From positions 1 through 9,537 of the forward strand of contig JAIPGT010000016.1 of NCBI GenBank assembly GCA_021735565.1: a DNA stretch of 9,537 nucleotides, written 5' to 3'. This DNA comes from Patescibacteria group bacterium. GTDB taxonomy: Bacteria; Patescibacteria; ABY1; JAGPKW01. The notes beneath the pieces were generated by a model that was given only the letters and a program-made list of their open reading frames with translations, had not been told where the DNA came from and made no database searches. Of this stretch, positions 1,948 to 9,537 are shown piece after piece; the first letter of the stretch is position 1, and each line of letters begins with the position of its first letter. Both the position numbers and the translations under genes were made by a program.

Positions 1948-4632
1948 TTATAATTTAAAATATCTCACTAATTCATCAAAAGAATTAAATTTTTCTTTAT
2001 TATAATCTTCTTGCTTTATATATAAATAATTAAATTTAACCTCATTTTGAGCTTTATTTATATCTTCACACCAAACTGCAAGTCTTTTTATTTTTTCTAT
2101 ATCATCTAGATCCTCTCTTCCTTTAGTTTCTATAATATAAACCTCTTTTTCATTCTTTTTTACTATAAAATCAGGATAATAATGTTTTATTTCTCCATCT
2201 GAATTTTTATATTCTATTTTAAAATTAATAGAAAAATAATTTTTTACATAAGAAATAATATCATCAAATTTTTCTAATAAATTAGCAAACTCTAATTCAA
2301 AAACACTATCACCAACAATTTTATTAAAAACGCTCTTTTTTGGAATTAAATACCCCTGATCTTTCCAAATAAAAGGCCTAGATTGACCTACCTTAATATA
2401 ATCCTTTACTTCTGCTTCACCTTTGTCTAAAATTGTTAAACTATTAATTTCTTTGGTAAATATATTTATTATAATATTTCTAGCCTCTATTTCTGATAAA
2501 TTTCTTAAAATATTTAGATTATTTAAATCAATTTCCTTATCAAAAAGATATTTTTGTATAAATTCTCTAACTTTAGGATAAAGGATGTCATAACCATTAA
2601 ATAATCTTACTTCTTTTAATATTGATTGAGTAAAGAACCCAACTACACTTGTATAATCAGGTACAGAATTATTATCCAAAAAGATCTTATGATTTACTTC
2701 TCCACTATCAATATCTCTAAAAATTATTTCTCTTTTTTCTTGTTCAGAGAATTCTTTTATTATTAATTTTTTATTACTAAAATTATTTAAATTTAAATCA
2801 GATAGGTTCTTATATTCTTTATAAATTCTAGGCGTTAAAATTGGAATCTTTATATCCATTTTTTCTAAATCTTTTTTTTCATTTTCTTTATCTATTTCTA
2901 TAACTAAAGGGGTAATAGGATTAGTATCAAATCCCATTTTTCTTTTTTCAAATTCAACACCCTCACTTTTTATAGATTCAACAAAATCCATAAAAGCTGT
3001 AGTTCCTATTACGCTTACATATTCTTCAATATCTTTTCTTTCTCTATACATTCTTCGAAGTCCTCTTCCTAAAGTTTGTTCAGGTAATATATTAGACTTT
3101 GAACTGTAAGCCCTTAATCCAACTATAGTTGTTACATTTTTTACATCCCAACCTTCTTTAAGCATTAAAACAGAAACTATAACCTTATAAGGGCTTTCTA
3201 AGCTATCAATATTATCAGCCTCTTTTCTTAATCTTTCTAATTCTTCTTTTGCTTTTCCAGTACTAGTTTCTGTTATTTCTCCATTATCTTTAGTATGTAT
3301 AACTAAAACAGAATTTTTAAACTCTGTATATTTAGATTCTAAAAATTCTTTAACTTCATCACAATTTTTTGTATCATCTGTCATAATAAAAAGAACAGTC
3401 TTTTTATTCATTTTAATATGTTCATTGTATGATTTCTTCCATTCTTCATAACCTAACTGTAAAAAATCTTCATATTTTTCTGTATAAATTGAACTTTGTT
3501 TTTCAATTAGTCTTGCTCTACTTGATTCTTCTGGTAAAATTGGATGTTTTACTACATTTTGTCTAATAGCTTCTACTAAAGGATAATCTGAAATTGTTTG
3601 GACAAAGATTCCACCTTTATCATGTTTTGGTGTAGCAGTTAAATCAATTTGCAAGGACAATCTTTTACCTTTTTGTTTTAATTTATTATCAATATCTTCA
3701 ATAGATTTAAACCAGGCTAATTTTTCGTCATGAATATGATGAGCTTCGTCATTTATTATAACTAATTCTTCTATATTTCTAACAATTTCACCTAAATCAA
3801 CTTTTGTGTCAATTGCGTTTGTAACAGATTTTTCTCCTAAAAAGTAATTTGTTAAATTTTCATCTTCTATTGAAGATATTTTATTATTACTATCATAAAC
3901 TCTGTGTATATTTGTTAAAAATATATTACCAGTATTACTTATATTAGATATATTATCTTGTAAATGTAGTTTTAACTGAAAATCATTTTTCCAATCTCTA
4001 CCTTTAAAACCATTTTCTGGTAATACTGGATCTTCAAAAAATATTTTTAATCCTTTAAAATCACTATAAATTCTATCTAAAACTATAATATTAGGGGTTA
4101 TAACTAAAAAATTCTTTGATAAATCAGAATTCTCTTCATATTTTTTATGAAAATAACTCCAAGCTAATAATAAGCTCATAACTTTAGTTTTTCCTGAACC
4201 TGTAGCCATTTTTATAACAAATCTTTTCCAATCTTCAGAAAACATAGAAGGAGAAACTATCCCACTTTCATCAAATCTTAATAAATCATATTTATCTTTA
4301 ACTTTTATTACATCATATAAATAAATAATGGTTTCAACAGATTCTCTTTGAGCAAAATAATATTTAAATTCAAAATCAATTCCATCAGAATTTTTTAAAT
4401 AATGGGGATTTTTAAACCACCAATTAAGTAAGGCTATAGAAGTTTCAGTAGCTCCTTTATAATTATTGTCTCTCCATTCTTTTACTTCCTTTCTTAATTT
4501 ATGAACAAATGGAGGGAGCAATTTATACATAGCTCCACCTTTGTCTTTTAAAGATTCCTCACCTGGAACCCATCTAATTGATGGATCTAAAATTTCATGA
4601 GGAGATTGAGGAAAATTAGAATTTAAAGACAT
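1948..4632 (-). CDS. res: Type III restriction enzyme Res-like subunit (SF2 helicase + PD-(D/E)XK nuclease)
   Basis: This 894-residue protein is the ATP-dependent translocase and cleavage subunit of a type III-like restriction system. It acts with the Mod subunit encoded upstream to cut unmethylated foreign DNA. The SF2 helicase core is complete: Walker A ATGSGKT (143-149), DEAH box INDEAHH (293-299), TATP (332-335), and motif VI QTLGRGLRRM (519-528) preceded by LKEGWDVKNV. The C-terminal region has a PD-(D/E)XK nuclease signature: FELEFANLLEKF supplies an upstream acidic residue near 779, then YPDF (P820-D821) and IIETKG (E835, K837). The length is within the range known for Res proteins. 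It starts 5 bases after the membrane-protein gene and ends 7 bases before the HEPN-like gene. All key residues are present, so activity is likely. A plain DEAD/DEAH helicase annotation would be less specific but not wrong. Confidence 0.92.
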   Translation of the reverse strand: MSLNSNFPQSPHEILDPSIRWVPGEESLKDKGGAMYKLLPPFVHKLRKEVKEWRDNNYKGATETSIALLNWWFKNPHYLKNSDGIDFEFKYYFAQRESVETIIYLYDVIKVKDKYDLLRFDESGIVSPSMFSEDWKRFVIKMATGSGKTKVMSLLLAWSYFHKKYEENSDLSKNFLVITPNIIVLDRIYSDFKGLKIFFEDPVLPENGFKGRDWKNDFQLKLHLQDNISNISNTGNIFLTNIHRVYDSNNKISSIEDENLTNYFLGEKSVTNAIDTKVDLGEIVRNIEELVIINDEAHHIHDEKLAWFKSIEDIDNKLKQKGKRLSLQIDLTATPKHDKGGIFVQTISDYPLVEAIRQNVVKHPILPEESSRARLIEKQSSIYTEKYEDFLQLGYEEWKKSYNEHIKMNKKTVLFIMTDDTKNCDEVKEFLESKYTEFKNSVLVIHTKDNGEITETSTGKAKEELERLRKEADNIDSLESPYKVIVSVLMLKEGWDVKNVTTIVGLRAYSSKSNILPEQTLGRGLRRMYRERKDIEEYVSVIGTTAFMDFVESIKSEGVEFEKRKMGFDTNPITPLVIEIDKENEKKDLEKMDIKIPILTPRIYKEYKNLSDLNLNNFSNKKLIIKEFSEQEKREIIFRDIDSGEVNHKIFLDNNSVPDYTSVVGFFTQSILKEVRLFNGYDILYPKVREFIQKYLFDKEIDLNNLNILRNLSEIEARNIIINIFTKEINSLTILDKGEAEVKDYIKVGQSRPFIWKDQGYLIPKKSVFNKIVGDSVFELEFANLLEKFDDIISYVKNYFSINFKIEYKNSDGEIKHYYPDFIVKKNEKEVYIIETKGREDLDDIEKIKRLAVWCEDINKAQNEVKFNYLYIKQEDYNKEKFNSFDELVRYFKL

Positions 4633-5347: not shown

Positions 5348-7531
5348 TTAAATATTAACTTCCACAACTTTCATTGTGTCATTTCCAAAAATATCTACCA
5401 CTTTTACTGCTATTTTTCTTTTTCCTGTTTTTACTTCCATTTCTGAAGACTTTAATTCTAGTGTTCTATTTTTTTTAGTTCTAAAAGACTGCCACTCATT
5501 TTCAAATATATATTCTCCCGTCCAATGTTCTTCCCATTCTTTATTTTTATTTTGTTTTTGTATAATTTCCTTTTTACTTTCATAATTAAAATCAATAGAC
5601 CAATAATCTATCCAATCTGTCCAACTTTTTGTTACAACCTCTCTAGAAATTATTCCTTCTTTATCTTTTGATATTTTTATAATTTGCCCTGAATCTAAAA
5701 GAATTTTTTCACCTCCATTCCTTAAGTCGCTTTCTTGTTTATTAATATCATCCTGATTATAAAAACAAGAAAACTCAAGAAGCTCAATAGAAATTCTATT
5801 CTTCTTTATAATTGGTTTAAATTCTATATAAGAAACATCATAAAATTTAACTTGGTTTTTCTCTATTAATTTTTTATCAAAAACTTCTTTTGGTATAAAT
5901 TTTAAAGATATATCAATCCCTCTTTCTTTTGCTTCTTGGACTTCTATTTGTATTCCCATTTCAAATTCAAAAGAAAGTAAATCTACTTTACTTATATTAT
6001 TTTCTAGAGATTCTTTTATAATCTCTTCTAAAAATAATTTAGATACTGGGACATTTATGGGTCCAATAGCTACCATTCTAGAGTTTTTATTTCCAATAAA
6101 TGTTTTAAATCCCGAAACACTTTCTGCTTTATATGCTTTTAATATTAATTCTATAAAAGCATCTTCTTTTTTCTTAATTTGTTCTTGTTTTTCTTGATCT
6201 CTTAAATCTTCATTAATTCCTATATAATGTTGTCTTTCATATTTTCCTAAATTTAAAATTTCAAAAGCTCTAAAATTTTTTCCATCCTTTTTTAATTCTC
6301 TTTGAACTCCTATCATCCTTTTTCTAGTTGTGTGAATTCCAAATTTACCTAAATCAGCACCAATCCATTTTCTATTTAATTTTTCAGCTACTGCAAGTGT
6401 TGTTCCGCTTCCACAGAAAAAATCACAAACAATATCTCCTTCATTAGAAGATGCTTTTATAATTCTTTCTAAGAGTTTTTCAGGTTTTTGAGTTGGGTAA
6501 TCAACAACTTCTGGGTTTTTACCGTGTGAAATATTTGATATATCATTCCAAAGTGAACCTATTGCTAGTTGAAATTCATCTAAATAATATTTTTTATATT
6601 GTTGTCCAGTAGATGTTTTATAAATTAAATTTTTATTTTTCATTTCATTGATAGATTTTTGAGAATAATCACCCAATGTAACTATTTTAAATAATCTCCC
6701 ATCTTCTTCTTTATACCTAAATTCTTTTAATTGTTTATATTTTAATTCATTAACTTCTTTATATTGTTGTAAAAAAATATAGTCATTAGTAGATTTTGAA
6801 TACCAAAAAATAGATTCAATTTCTTTTGACCATTGTTTAGAAATCTTTTTTGCTCCTTTCCCTACAGAGTCTCTTTTCCAAACTATCTCATTTCTAAAAT
6901 TCTCTTTTCCAAATATTTCATCTAGTATTAATCTCATATATCCACTAACTCTCCAATCACAATGTACATATATATTTCCATCTTCTGAAAGTAAATCCCT
7001 CATTAAAGTTAATCTCTCATAAATCATGGAAATAAAACTATCTGCCCCCTTACCCCAAGTATCACGATATGCAATCTCTTCTAAAACACTAGGTTTTTTA
7101 GTAAATTCGTTATCTCCAACTTCTATTTTCATAGAAAAATCTGCTCCAACATCAAAAGGAGGATCAATATAAATTAATTTTATACCACCCTGATCTTCTA
7201 TTTCTTTTCTTAATGGCCCATTTTTTAAAGAAGATAAAATTAATTTATTATCTCCCCAAATAAGTTTGTTAGTCCATCCCTTAACTTGTCTTCCACTAAA
7301 ATCAAATAGTCCACTTTGTAAATTATTTTTTATTTCACTTCTAGGTTCGTCAATCCTTTCAATAACTTGAAAAGGTAAAACAGAATTACAAATTTCATTA
7401 GTTTTTCCATTCCAAACAAGCTCAACTTGTTTTTTATCATCAAATAAAAGAAATCTATATTTATCAGGAAGATCTCTTCCATCTTCTAAAAGTTTAATAA
7501 TATCCCTAATTTCATGTTCTTGAAGTTGCAT
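5348..7531 (-). CDS. mod: Type III-like site-specific DNA methyltransferase (Mod)
   Basis: This is the modification and recognition subunit of the restriction system, transferring a methyl group from S-adenosylmethionine to an exocyclic amino group, most likely N6 of adenine. Residue numbers count from the upstream ATG at 7558. Motif IV, IDPPF (131-135), precedes motif I, FFCGSGTT (380-387), the beta-class order. TQKPEKLLERI (356-366) sits just before motif I. The variable region between about 225 and 345 should contain the target-recognition domain. About 290 residues follow the catalytic core. They end in a segment, WQSFRTKKNRTLELKS then KIAVKVVDIFGNDT, that looks like a beta-sandwich of PKD or Ig type. 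I prefer the ATG at 7531, giving MQLQEHEIRDII. The 7558 start adds a hydrophobic MLNFFILFL unlike a cytosolic enzyme, and TATATT at 7544-7539 would make the shorter form leaderless. It is the first gene of the operon. Confidence 0.92.
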   Translation of the reverse strand: MQLQEHEIRDIIKLLEDGRDLPDKYRFLLFDDKKQVELVWNGKTNEICNSVLPFQVIERIDEPRSEIKNNLQSGLFDFSGRQVKGWTNKLIWGDNKLILSSLKNGPLRKEIEDQGGIKLIYIDPPFDVGADFSMKIEVGDNEFTKKPSVLEEIAYRDTWGKGADSFISMIYERLTLMRDLLSEDGNIYVHCDWRVSGYMRLILDEIFGKENFRNEIVWKRDSVGKGAKKISKQWSKEIESIFWYSKSTNDYIFLQQYKEVNELKYKQLKEFRYKEEDGRLFKIVTLGDYSQKSINEMKNKNLIYKTSTGQQYKKYYLDEFQLAIGSLWNDISNISHGKNPEVVDYPTQKPEKLLERIIKASSNEGDIVCDFFCGSGTTLAVAEKLNRKWIGADLGKFGIHTTRKRMIGVQRELKKDGKNFRAFEILNLGKYERQHYIGINEDLRDQEKQEQIKKKEDAFIELILKAYKAESVSGFKTFIGNKNSRMVAIGPINVPVSKLFLEEIIKESLENNISKVDLLSFEFEMGIQIEVQEAKERGIDISLKFIPKEVFDKKLIEKNQVKFYDVSYIEFKPIIKKNRISIELLEFSCFYNQDDINKQESDLRNGGEKILLDSGQIIKISKDKEGIISREVVTKSWTDWIDYWSIDFNYESKKEIIQKQNKNKEWEEHWTGEYIFENEWQSFRTKKNRTLELKSSEMEVKTGKRKIAVKVVDIFGNDTMKVVEVNI

Positions 7532-7593
7532 AAGAAATAATATAAAAAAATTAAGCATTCGTTTTTAGATGCTCTATATAATCTTTACTTAAC

Positions 7594-7620
7594 AAAAAAG
7601 AGCAACCTTACACGGGTTGC
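7594..7620 (-). terminator. Rho-independent terminator of the structured RNA
   Basis: On the minus strand GCAACC (7620-7615) pairs with GGTTGC (7607-7602) around a seven-base loop, and TCTTTTTT follows. It closes the structured RNA and lies about 60 bases before the mod start. Its 5' arm shares three bases with helix P1, and its 3' arm can pair instead with the apical loop at 7685-7678, so termination could be conditional. Confidence 0.75.
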
Positions 7621-7752
7621 GTAAACAACTACCAGTTTTGGCGCAATGCCAATCATAATAGTGTTATCCCGATAAGATTGCTCTTACTTCACACTATTAT
7701 GACCAAAATGCTAACAAAGAAACTGGTAGTGGACTGATAATTGTTTACGCAT
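7594..7752 (-). ncRNA. Structured RNA of about 159 nt, 6S-like fold or attenuator leader
   Basis: A promoter places the start near 7752-7750, and the RNA would end in a T-tract near 7594. Helices, in RNA order: P1, TGCGTAAACAA (7751-7741) with TTGTTTACGCA (7628-7618), 11 bp. P2, ACTACCAGTTT (7730-7720) with AAACTGGTAGT (7638-7628), 11 bp sharing one base with P1. Apical P4, TCATAATAGTGT (7702-7691) with ACACTATTATGA (7664-7653), 12 bp. Between P2 and P4 is a large bubble. Its 3' side holds a small hairpin, TTGGC/GCCAA (7652-7648 with 7642-7638). The apical loop contains TAAGA/TCTTA. A closing stem, a central bubble with a 3'-side hairpin and an apical arm are the plan of 6S RNA, which binds RNA polymerase. 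Position just ahead of mod also allows a riboswitch-like leader. I see no conserved motif of a known riboswitch class, so the identity is open. Confidence 0.6.
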
Positions 7753-7756
7753 TTAT

Positions 7757-7785
7757 ATTTTAACCCTTTATGCTTATTTTTGCAA
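7757..7785 (-). promoter_or_regulatory. Promoter for the structured RNA
   Basis: Minus-strand TTGCAA (7785-7780) is followed by a 17-base spacer and TAAAAT (7762-7757). The -10 matches five of six consensus bases, the -35 four of six. The predicted start falls at the first bases of helix P1, which is strong positional support. It may also serve mod by readthrough. Confidence 0.6.
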
Positions 7786-7845: not shown

Positions 7846-8598
7846 ATGTTTATTCCTAAAACTGAAAAAATAGAAAAAATTTATAATAAATCTCCTGATA
7901 AAGTTAACAACTTTGATCATTTAATTAATAAAAATACTATTTTATATATTGATTATGCTAATGTTAAAAATTGGAAACTAAAAAAATCTTGGCATATAGA
8001 TATAAAAAGATTAAAACAATTTTTAAATTGTTTTGATAATGTAGAAAAAATAAACCTTTATTATGGGAGTTTAATTGGTGACAAAAAATCTGAACTAGAA
8101 ATTAAAAAAATCAAAAAATTTGGTTATAATTTAATAACAAAAAATGTTAAAATAATGCGTCATTCTATTGATGTAAGCAGTATATCAATGGATTCTACAA
8201 TATTAATATCTCAATTTATTAGAAAAAATCTAATTTTGCATTTAAATAAAAAAGAAATTATTTACTTAAATAAAATTTTTTATAGATTAAATAAATTAGG
8301 AAAAATGTATATAGAAGATAGAAAATGTAATTTTGATGTAGAAATTGGAAGAGATATGTTAATAGATTTTACAAAAAATAATATAAAAAGTTTTGTTTTA
8401 TTTAGTGGAGATAGTGATTTTGCTGATCCAATTAATCAATTATTAAAAGATGGTAAAAATATTATTTTAATTTGTACATATCATTGTGTAGCAAAAGAAT
8501 TGAATCAATTAAGAAAGAAAGGATTAATTATTTTTGATATTAATAATATAAAAAATTTTATTTGTAGAAATAAAGAAATTGATAAAAATTTATTTTAA
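7846..8598 (+). CDS. NYN-domain (PIN-like, DUF88/LabA-type) ribonuclease
   Basis: This 250-residue protein has the conserved acidic motifs of the NYN branch of the PIN-like nuclease superfamily. These are ILYIDYANV (D36, N39), the middle motif CNFDVEIGRDMLIDF (D164, D170, D174), and FSGDSDFADPI (D189, D191), followed by GKNIILI. The acidic residues coordinate the metal used for RNA cleavage. A helical insertion at about 105-155 separates the first motif region from the rest and is longer than in the minimal domain. NYN proteins act in RNA processing and decay, and some appear in defence or toxin contexts. It stands alone on the plus strand, divergent from a structured RNA and the restriction operon, which makes that RNA a conceivable substrate. 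The start has no Shine-Dalgarno sequence. A minus-facing terminator begins right at its 3' end. The cellular target is unknown. Confidence 0.85.
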   Translation: MFIPKTEKIEKIYNKSPDKVNNFDHLINKNTILYIDYANVKNWKLKKSWHIDIKRLKQFLNCFDNVEKINLYYGSLIGDKKSELEIKKIKKFGYNLITKNVKIMRHSIDVSSISMDSTILISQFIRKNLILHLNKKEIIYLNKIFYRLNKLGKMYIEDRKCNFDVEIGRDMLIDFTKNNIKSFVLFSGDSDFADPINQLLKDGKNIILICTYHCVAKELNQLRKKGLIIFDINNIKNFICRNKEIDKNLF

Positions 8599-8694: not shown

Positions 8695-8736
8695 AAAATA
8701 TTTTATTGATTCTTAATTTTATATTTAAAAAAAAAT

Positions 8737-8812
8737 GGGCGCATAATATAAAACGGGCGCACAATGTGCATGGCCAGACATGTCTGGCCACTACATTATT
8801 TTATAAAATAAT
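8737..8812. repeat. Nested REP-like palindromes, copy A
   Basis: GGGCGCA at 8737-8743 is followed by a second GGGCGCAC at 8755-8762, whose partner arm is cut short at GTGC (8766-8769). The perfect 20-base palindrome TGGCCAGACATGTCTGGCCA (8771-8790) abuts it and is followed by CTAC (8791-8794). On the minus strand that is GTAG before a hairpin, the arrangement of REP elements moved by RAYT-type transposases. An 18-base AT palindrome at 8795-8812 and a T-run follow. The GC content contrasts sharply with the surroundings. No transposase is present in the window. Confidence 0.6.
8748..8769 (+). repeat. Direct repeat left of the toxin-antitoxin unit
   Basis: These 22 bases, beginning ATAAAACGGGCG and ending AATGTGC, are identical to 9488-9509 in the same orientation. 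The two copies bracket the toxin-antitoxin operon. Here the REP-like hairpin is truncated after GTGC by the adjoining TGGCCA palindrome. Confidence 0.7.
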
Positions 8813-8838
8813 ATTATTTTTTTATTTATTATTTGATT

Positions 8839-8863
8839 GGAACGCGCCAAGGCGCGTTCCTAC
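8839..8863. repeat. REP-like palindrome, copy B
   Basis: GGAACGCGCC (8839-8848) and GGCGCGTTCC (8851-8860) form a perfect 10-bp stem around AA. The right edge reads CTAC (8860-8863) and continues ACAATATTTT, the same flank style as the copy at 9495. On the minus strand this is GTAG plus hairpin. It is not followed directly by a T-run, so a REP-like element is a better description than a terminator. Confidence 0.6.
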
Positions 8864-8904
8864 AATATTTTGTTTTATTTTATTTAAAATGGGTATATAA
8901 TAAT

Positions 8905-8968: not shown

Positions 8969-9196
8969 ATGAGAAAAGTTCTAAGCATATCTCTCCCCTC
9001 TGAAACTCTTGAAGATATCAAAAAAAAATCAAAAAAAAGAAATTTTGATTCTATCTCTTCATATATAAAATATTTATTTTCTTTAGATAATGATTTAATT
9101 TCTGAAGATGAGTTATTAGATACTATTAAATCTTCTAGAGAGGAATATAAAAAAGGTGAATCTATATCTGCAAATTCTTTATCTGAACTTTTATGA
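8969..9196 (+). CDS. Ribbon-helix-helix-type antitoxin (type II TA)
   Basis: This 75-residue protein starts VLSISLPSETLEDIKKKSKKRNFDS, a strand followed by a helix as in the ribbon-helix-helix (CopG/ParD-like) DNA-binding fold. SSYIKYLFSLDN forms the second helix. The acidic C-terminal half (SEDELLDTIKSSREEYKKGE and SANSLSELL) is typical of the tail that wraps around and neutralises the cognate toxin. It lies directly upstream of a RelE-type toxin and overlaps it by the 4-base ATGA junction, so translation is coupled. Repeated motifs in its promoter are the probable operator it binds, alone or with the toxin. The name of the particular antitoxin family is uncertain; ParD-like and RelB-like proteins look alike at this length. 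Confidence 0.85.
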   Translation: MRKVLSISLPSETLEDIKKKSKKRNFDSISSYIKYLFSLDNDLISEDELLDTIKSSREEYKKGESISANSLSELL

Positions 9197-9465
9197 TTGT
9201 AAATAAAATTTTATATTCAAAAAAATTTGTTAAAGAATTAAAAAATTTACCCGAAAATATTCTTAATATAGCAATTAAAAAAGAAATAATTTTTAAAGAC
9301 AATCCTTTACATCCATCTTTGAGGCTTCATGAGCTACATGGAAAATTTCAAGGTATTTGGTCTATTTCTATAACTTCTGGTTATAGAATTATTTTTGAAA
9401 GAATGGAAAATGGAGATATATTATTTATATCAATAGGAAAACACGATTTGTATAAGTATTTGTGA
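9193..9465 (+). CDS. RelE/ParE-superfamily toxin (type II TA, mRNA interferase-like)
   Basis: This 90-residue protein has the RelE/ParE fold signature. SKKFVKELKNLPENI is the amphipathic N-terminal helix. HPSLRLHELHGKFQGIWSIS is the characteristic basic strand with R44 and K51, GYRIIFER carries the conserved R65, and FISIGKHDLYKYL ends with H84 and Y87. Basic and aromatic residues at these positions are those used by RelE/YafQ-like toxins to cut ribosome-bound mRNA. ParE-type gyrase inhibition cannot be excluded from sequence alone, but the I-G-x-H-D-x-Y ending favours the mRNA interferase branch. The protein is full length with no missing key residue. Translation starts at the ATG overlapping the antitoxin stop. 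Confidence 0.88.
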   Translation: MIVNKILYSKKFVKELKNLPENILNIAIKKEIIFKDNPLHPSLRLHELHGKFQGIWSISITSGYRIIFERMENGDILFISIGKHDLYKYL

Positions 9466-9487: not shown

Positions 9488-9517
9488 ATAAAACGGGCGC
9501 ACAATGTGCGCCCATAC
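9488..9517. repeat. REP-like palindrome, copy C, with right-hand direct repeat
   Basis: GGGCGCAC (9495-9502) and GTGCGCCC (9506-9513) form a perfect 8-bp stem around AAT, followed by ATAC (9514-9517), one change from CTAC. Bases 9488-9509 repeat 8748-8769 exactly. This appears to be the intact form of the hairpin truncated on the left side. It lies 30 bases after the toxin stop, and a T-run at 9531-9535 is too distant to make it a classical terminator. Confidence 0.65.
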
Positions 9518-9537
9518 AATATTTATTGATTTTTTAA

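Follow-up and report, generated by a model that had tools for sequence, protein, structure and literature searches.

Does the structured DNA that precedes mod in a Patescibacteria genome specify an RNA and, if so, is this RNA an analogue of 6S, a small RNA in its own right or a leader of the operon behind it? The locus was analysed within a stretch of 9,537 nucleotides of contig JAIPGT010000016.1, referred to below as the window.

Layout and fold of the element

Direct reading of the minus strand gave the order promoter-like site, 132-nt structured body, terminator, 62 nt and mod (Table 1). The structured element of about 159 nt is real and, judged by its sequence, resembles an RNA transcription unit; it is probably a cis-acting RNA and is treated here as a putative one. 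It offers a concrete RNA of about 159 nt with exact predicted ends. The G+C-content of the element is 38%, compared with 23% in the window, and is the highest of all 159-nt stretches.

The predicted start of the promoter-like site coincides with the first base of the closing stem. However, sites of this kind were not rarer than chance in the 601 bases scanned (7 found versus 4.2 expected from shuffles), so it is mainly its position that speaks for this one. The terminator scan returned one site versus 0.2 expected, on the minus strand only, and the U run that follows its hairpin ends at position 7594.

Three inverted repeats were read directly from the sequence, TGCGTAAACAA/TTGTTTACGCA and ACTACCAGTTT/AAACTGGTAGT (11 bp each) and TCATAATAGTGT/ACACTATTATGA (12 bp), all exact and in their annotated places. 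At least three inverted repeats of at least 10 bp occurred in 0 of 5000 dinucleotide shuffles (none in 4929, one in 70 and two in 1). The initial annotation had claimed that arms of 11, 11 and 12 bp are too long for chance, and that promoter, body and terminator follow each other on the minus strand; the shuffles bear out the first claim and the layout supports the second, with transcription itself predicted from sequence.

The fold energy of 161 nt corresponded to a z-score of −5.36, with 0 of 200 shuffles as low. For the 132-nt body it was −48.6 kcal/mol (z = −6.9), whereas 1000 shuffles averaged −25.2 and none of them was as low. Among 938 segments of 160 nt, taken from both strands at a step of 20, the element had the lowest fold energy.

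Table 1. Predicted features of the element and two genes of the operon, listed along the minus strand
Feature	Position	Strand	Details
Promoter-like site TTGCAA-17-TAAAAT	7757..7785	−	9/12 matches; predicted start near 7750 (G7750)
Predicted RNA, ~159 nt	7592..7750	−	ends taken from promoter-like site and terminator; numbering nt i = 7751 − i
Closing stem, 5′ strand (nt 1–18)	7733..7750	−	18 bp with nt 115–132, two U·G; fold prediction
Competing 5′ strand (nt 21–31)	7720..7730	−	11 bp with nt 113–123; in open 5′ bubble strand in state A
Apical arm, 13 bp (nt 48–60 with 87–99)	7652..7703	−	26-nt loop; fold prediction
Apical-loop segment (nt 66–83)	7668..7685	−	complementary to terminator: 18 bp, one bulge, two U·G
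Hairpin on 3′ side of bubble (nt 100–112)	7639..7651	−	fold prediction
Closing stem, 3′ strand (nt 115–132)	7619..7636	−	nt 131–132 also base of terminator hairpin; fold prediction
Intrinsic-terminator hairpin GCAACC/GGUUGC (nt 131–149), then UCUUUUUU	7602..7620	−	terminator scan and fold prediction
Terminator segment (nt 135–153)	7598..7616	−	pairs apical loop in alternative fold; duplex prediction
mod, DNA methylase (PF01555)	5348..7531	−	first gene of tight operon; ATG at 7531
res, type III restriction subunit (PF04851)	1948..4632	−	same operon as mod; Pfam

A strong fold of both strands could also mark a palindromic element that acts at the DNA level, such as a mobile repeat or a recombination or replication hairpin, and is transcribed in appearance only. 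The plus strand of the body folds well too (z = −6.0), as such an element would. However, the fold of the minus strand is better (−52.6 versus −46.9). In the minus-strand reading, the 60 pairs in named helices, alternatives counted, comprise 55 Watson-Crick, 5 G·U and 0 A·C pairs, and these counts are only supporting evidence for the strand because the helices were chosen from minus-strand folding. The five G·U pairs become mismatches if read on the plus strand. In these predicted structures, the wobble pairs and the terminator favour the minus strand, in line with a transcribed leader and against a DNA palindrome.

Comparison with 6S RNA

Two predicted states of the closing stem were found. 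In state A, nt 1–18 pair with nt 115–132 (18 bp), leaving a mostly open 5′ bubble strand of 29 nt opposite the small hairpin (−48.6). In state B, nt 1–9 remain paired as in A, nt 10–20 are bulged, and nt 21–31 pair with nt 113–123 (11 bp; −46.2). The states thus differ by 2.4 kcal/mol. Among minimum-energy folds of growing prefixes, which are equilibrium folds and not kinetics, that of 120 nt had the pairing of state B, and those of 130 nt or more were in state A. The bubble strand matches the closing-stem 3′ strand over 11 bp; after shuffling of the bubble strand, as good a match arose in 26 of 5000 cases, or in 146 of 5000 when G·U pairs were allowed. Neither the competing closing stems nor the complementarity of the apical loop with the terminator had been noticed in the initial annotation.

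According to one source, 6S RNAs are about 200 nt long and have imperfect arms and an open central bubble; 6S-1 of B. subtilis has a 3′-bubble hairpin and a ‘central bubble collapse helix’, formed by the bubble with the 3′ strand of P2 and also described for A. aeolicus 6S (PMC8876501). The element resembles the B. subtilis 6S-1 type in its predicted closing stem, its bubble with a 3′ hairpin, its apical arm and a possible collapse helix. The rod whose central bubble is open and carries a hairpin on its 3′ side is predicted in state A only, and the collapse helix is present as the 11-bp pairing potential. Unlike 6S, the element is shorter, has a loop complementary to its terminator, matches no 6S covariance model and has uninterrupted arms, free of the bulges and internal loops of the family. 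In a set of 13 6S RNAs from the control genomes described below (the 12 best-scoring hits and record L009), lengths were 179–194 nt, the longest predicted helix was 6–13 bp and the longest perfect repeat 7–10, compared with 132–159 nt, helices of 18 and 13 bp and a longest perfect repeat of 12 in the element.

Rfam scans of the window (E ≤ 5) and of a 241-base slice (E ≤ 10) listed 2 and 4 hits, respectively, all far below gathering scores; neither 6S (RF00013) nor 6S-Flavo, which we take to be RF01685, was among them. As a positive control, RF00013 matched 116 of 119 genomes at E ≤ 0.001, with 115 passing the cut-off, in the phylum to which the Ferroacidibacillus genome of record L003 belongs (presumably Bacillota). 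The same model matched just 4 or 5 of 14 named control genomes, and a miss in a distant phylum is therefore not proof of absence. A scan for tRNA and tmRNA found none. In the genome of record L097, a TwoAYGGAY RNA (RF01731, 51.8 bits) was seen at 730–885 on the plus strand, near the 6S gene.

Membership of the 6S family is not supported. The element may nevertheless function somewhat like 6S. As a strongly diverged analogue, it would mimic an open promoter in state A; transcribing from the 5′ bubble strand into the closing stem, RNA polymerase would synthesise a short product RNA, and nt 21–31 would pair with the 3′ strand released in this way, letting the enzyme go. The predicted bubble and the collapse-helix-like pairing agree with this reading, which we consider unlikely: besides the missing model matches and the long, perfect arms, it leaves unexplained both the match of the loop with the terminator and the position of that terminator 62 nt before mod. 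The initial annotation had proposed a 6S-like plan and pointed to the 6S and 6S-Flavo models. The closing stem, the bubble with a hairpin on its 3′ side and the apical arm were recovered in the predicted fold, together with an open 5′ strand of the bubble, and do resemble 6S, whereas the Rfam match did not materialise and the arms proved too long and too perfect. If true, a 6S analogue of this kind would show the extent of 6S drift beyond the Rfam model. In the literature searched, 6S RNA combined with Candidate Phyla Radiation gave no match, and combined with Patescibacteria only PMC8321541.

The terminator and the mod...res operon

Downstream of mod, the operon continues with two small genes, then res and other genes; adjacent listed open frames lie 2 to 32 bases apart. 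The ATG of mod lies 62 nt past the last T of the terminator T run; an alternative in-frame ATG at 7558 would make this spacer shorter. The terminator reaches −6.9 with six pairs and −1.2 without the two pairs that are common to the closing stem. Nt 131–132, which form these basal G-C pairs, are also needed by the closing stem in its full form.

The segment complementary to the apical loop, nt 135–153, runs from the end of the terminator 5′ arm through the loop and the 3′ arm of the terminator into the first U residues. The predicted duplex of loop and terminator has an energy of −26.8 kcal/mol, compared with shuffle means of −9.1 and −9.4 (sd 2.5 and 2.6), and was reached in 0 of 2000 shuffles of either partner. 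With nt 131–145, when the 3′ arm is still incomplete, the apical loop already gives −10.9. A harder control used 93 terminator-like hairpins from the window and the fetched loci and scored the best upstream 26-mer for each terminator, which gives −26.2 for the window; this value or a lower one occurred in 4 of the 92 others and, when the control was limited to hairpins with A+T-rich upstream DNA, in 1 of the 55 others. The complementarity of the loop is thus far less striking against other terminator-like hairpins than against shuffles. One viral-contig record (L065) carries two adjoining terminator-like hairpins at 4438–4458 and 4345–4367, with upstream complementarities of −26.2, equal to the window, and −21.0.

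We tentatively favour the reading of the element as a 5′ leader of the mod...res operon that acts as a transcription attenuator, over an unlinked small RNA and over the 6S analogue, because the terminator lies between a promoter and a co-directional operon and is contested by two alternative pairings, which is the usual logic of attenuation. Two features of attenuation leaders are present, each with a qualification: an intrinsic terminator between promoter and co-directional gene, with the promoter weakly supported, and a pairing exclusive with the terminator, which is equally strong in the 4 hairpins of the control. The promoter-like site, body, terminator, spacer and mod all share one strand, and the interval between terminator and mod contains no promoter-like site of at least 9/12. 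The best site there, at 8/12, would yield an almost leaderless message, and a nearly leaderless mod promoter of this kind would speak against attenuation. The two close states of the closing stem and the terminator pairs shared with it agree with an attenuator, as does the 235-nt read-through leader, whose minimum-energy fold lacks the terminator hairpin. However, keeping the loop-terminator helix in a nested fold costs energy (−41.6 at best, versus −52.6 for the free fold), so this helix requires a pseudoknot, and no riboswitch or leader of Rfam was matched. A T-box was set aside because of the lack of an Rfam match. In the predicted read-through leader, the terminator 3′ arm (7602–7608) pairs with the first mod codons (7523–7529) over 7 bp; this could be chance or a translational layer.

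In the favoured reading, RNA polymerase would start near 7750, and its rod-like transcript would end at an intrinsic terminator that is only marginal. The sequence and the predicted folds show two contests for the six pairs of this terminator, one with the closing stem at nt 131–132 and one with the apical loop through nt 66–83 with nt 135–153. Capture of the emerging terminator by the loop, as a pseudoknot, would let the polymerase read through into mod. If instead the loop were occupied or the closing stem shifted, the terminator would form and a free product of about 159 nt would result. The simplest guess for the signal would be an RNA or a protein on the apical loop, with the Mod protein among the candidates. 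A more specific form of the attenuator, which we regard as doubtful, is a two-state RNA switch of a kind so far undescribed, in which the apical loop of a long rod would capture the operon's own terminator as a pseudoknot and so provide on/off control of a type III restriction-modification operon.

Precedents exist among riboswitches: a pseudoknot is set against a terminator hairpin in the ZTP and fluoride riboswitches (PMC10687018) and likewise in the ZTP riboswitch (PMC10907184). The element shares with the ZTP (pfl) and fluoride (crcB) riboswitches a position in a 5′ leader and a pseudoknot that would compete with an intrinsic terminator (PMC10687018). Unlike them, it has no Rfam match, no known ligand and another class of downstream gene, and its predicted pseudoknot partner is the terminator strand itself, over 18 bp. 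In the rep leaders of plasmids pT181 and pIP501, which are antisense-controlled attenuators, an upstream segment can pair with the terminator strand and block the terminator. The pairing of an upstream segment with the terminator strand is common to these leaders and the element; unlike theirs, its downstream gene is not a replication gene, and an antisense promoter is not established. The timing of methylase versus nuclease in restriction operons is known mostly from type II systems with controller proteins; an RNA attenuator in front of a type III operon would, if true, be a different route. In the literature searched, no listed title pointed to RNA-based attenuation of a type III operon, and most subscription papers lie outside that literature.

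A rather unlikely alternative is a free-standing small RNA of unassigned class, with its own promoter and terminator and a stable product of about 159 nt, to which mod is incidental; a pseudoknot of loop and tail would then shield the 3′ end or serve pairing with another RNA. The promoter-like site, the terminator and the strong fold suit such an RNA equally, while the co-directional gene just 62 nt downstream does not. Base-pairing of the two loops of the RNA with ten gene starts gave nothing convincing (20 comparisons, most extreme z = −2.1); the apical loop matches its own terminator and not gene starts, which also argues against a free-standing small RNA.

Relatives of the element and its neighbourhood

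The upstream DNA of distant Mod relatives weighs on the same choice. Seventeen loci on viral contigs, all with distant relatives (49–59% identical, near full length), had no comparable leader; they were taken from 76 found. Of these loci, L034 and L008 are one contig, and the upstream DNA of L025 is identical to that of L026. Scanning 400 nt upstream in each flagged a terminator only in L025/L026, 280–281 nt upstream. A long-loop hairpin in L018, noticed by eye, was beyond what the terminator scan could count. Two plasmid relatives, equally distant (57% and 55% identical) and inspected by eye, showed nothing comparable, and in one of them another gene ends 48 bp before mod. The lack of a comparable leader at these 19 loci counts against an attenuator and in favour of a free-standing small RNA. 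In a protein search, the closest Mod relatives were 70–76% identical. The few named Mod relatives were scattered among the best 120 matches: Chlorobi, Nitrospira, Daviesbacteria, Pacearchaeota and Deltaproteobacteria.

No homologue of the element was found in the DNA searched (named genomes, viral contigs, plasmids and phages), a further point against the attenuator. A covariance model built from the single sequence, run on 88 of 92 sequence records (L009, L047, L055 and L088 left out), found only the window (205.6 bits on the minus strand, 33.3 on the plus strand) and L010 at E = 3.6. Distant blastn searches at E ≤ 10 returned 39 plasmid and 55 phage records; among the best 20 rows of each, coverage was at most 21%; most matches lay in the A+T-rich flanks, and a few covered the promoter together with the element's first bases. 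The longest frame without a stop codon across the element, used as the query of a protein search, gave no candidate.

Several pattern matches were rejected. In named genomes, a DNA pattern matched three times within open frames that resemble ABC-transporter ATPases, as read from their translation, and these matches were unrelated. In viral contigs it matched four times; these were dropped, judged from the sequence around the match only. The closing-stem pattern occurred in one viral contig with GTAAACAA-type repeats and was rejected on reading, while two further stem patterns had 0 matches. A retron-type RNA was set aside, with no reverse transcriptase recognised by Pfam among the ten window proteins.

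These searches return to the DNA-level palindrome, which appears very unlikely. Short palindromic repeats do occur elsewhere in the window, at 8730–8870 and 9488–9522, which counts in its favour. However, the window holds no second copy of the element itself, the best plasmid and phage matches cover only the 21% given above, and the stem patterns hit viral contigs once, in that unrelated repeat. The recurrence of the same palindrome at many loci, which the initial annotation had named as the sign of a mobile repeat, was not seen in the window, plasmids, phages and viral contigs searched. Any probability left beyond these four readings belongs to something else.

The repeats at 8730–8870 and 9488–9522 are short, G+C-rich intergenic palindromes (for example, GGGCGCACAATGTGCGCCC and GGCCAGACATGTCTGGCC), one 22-mer of which has two exact copies; by their sequence, they look like interspersed palindromic repeats. 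They lie around two genes at 8969–9465 on the plus strand, encoding a 75-aa protein without a Pfam match and, after a short overlap, a YafQ/RelE-like protein (PF15738), which are likely a type II toxin-antitoxin pair.

Divergently from the RNA, an NYN-domain protein is encoded at 7846–8598 on the plus strand. It has 1688 database relatives, and no link to the RNA was found. Among the best 120 of these, named relatives were scattered over Pacebacteria, Omnitrophica and Syntrophaceae. Relatives on viral contigs were absent by single sequence and numbered 3, distant and all without the RNA, by alignment; none was found on plasmids.

At the other end of the window, two open frames on the minus strand, 1206–967 and 900–283 (the second with DUF5655), share a reading frame in which a TAA at 967–969 stands between them, so that 283–1206 looks like one interrupted gene.
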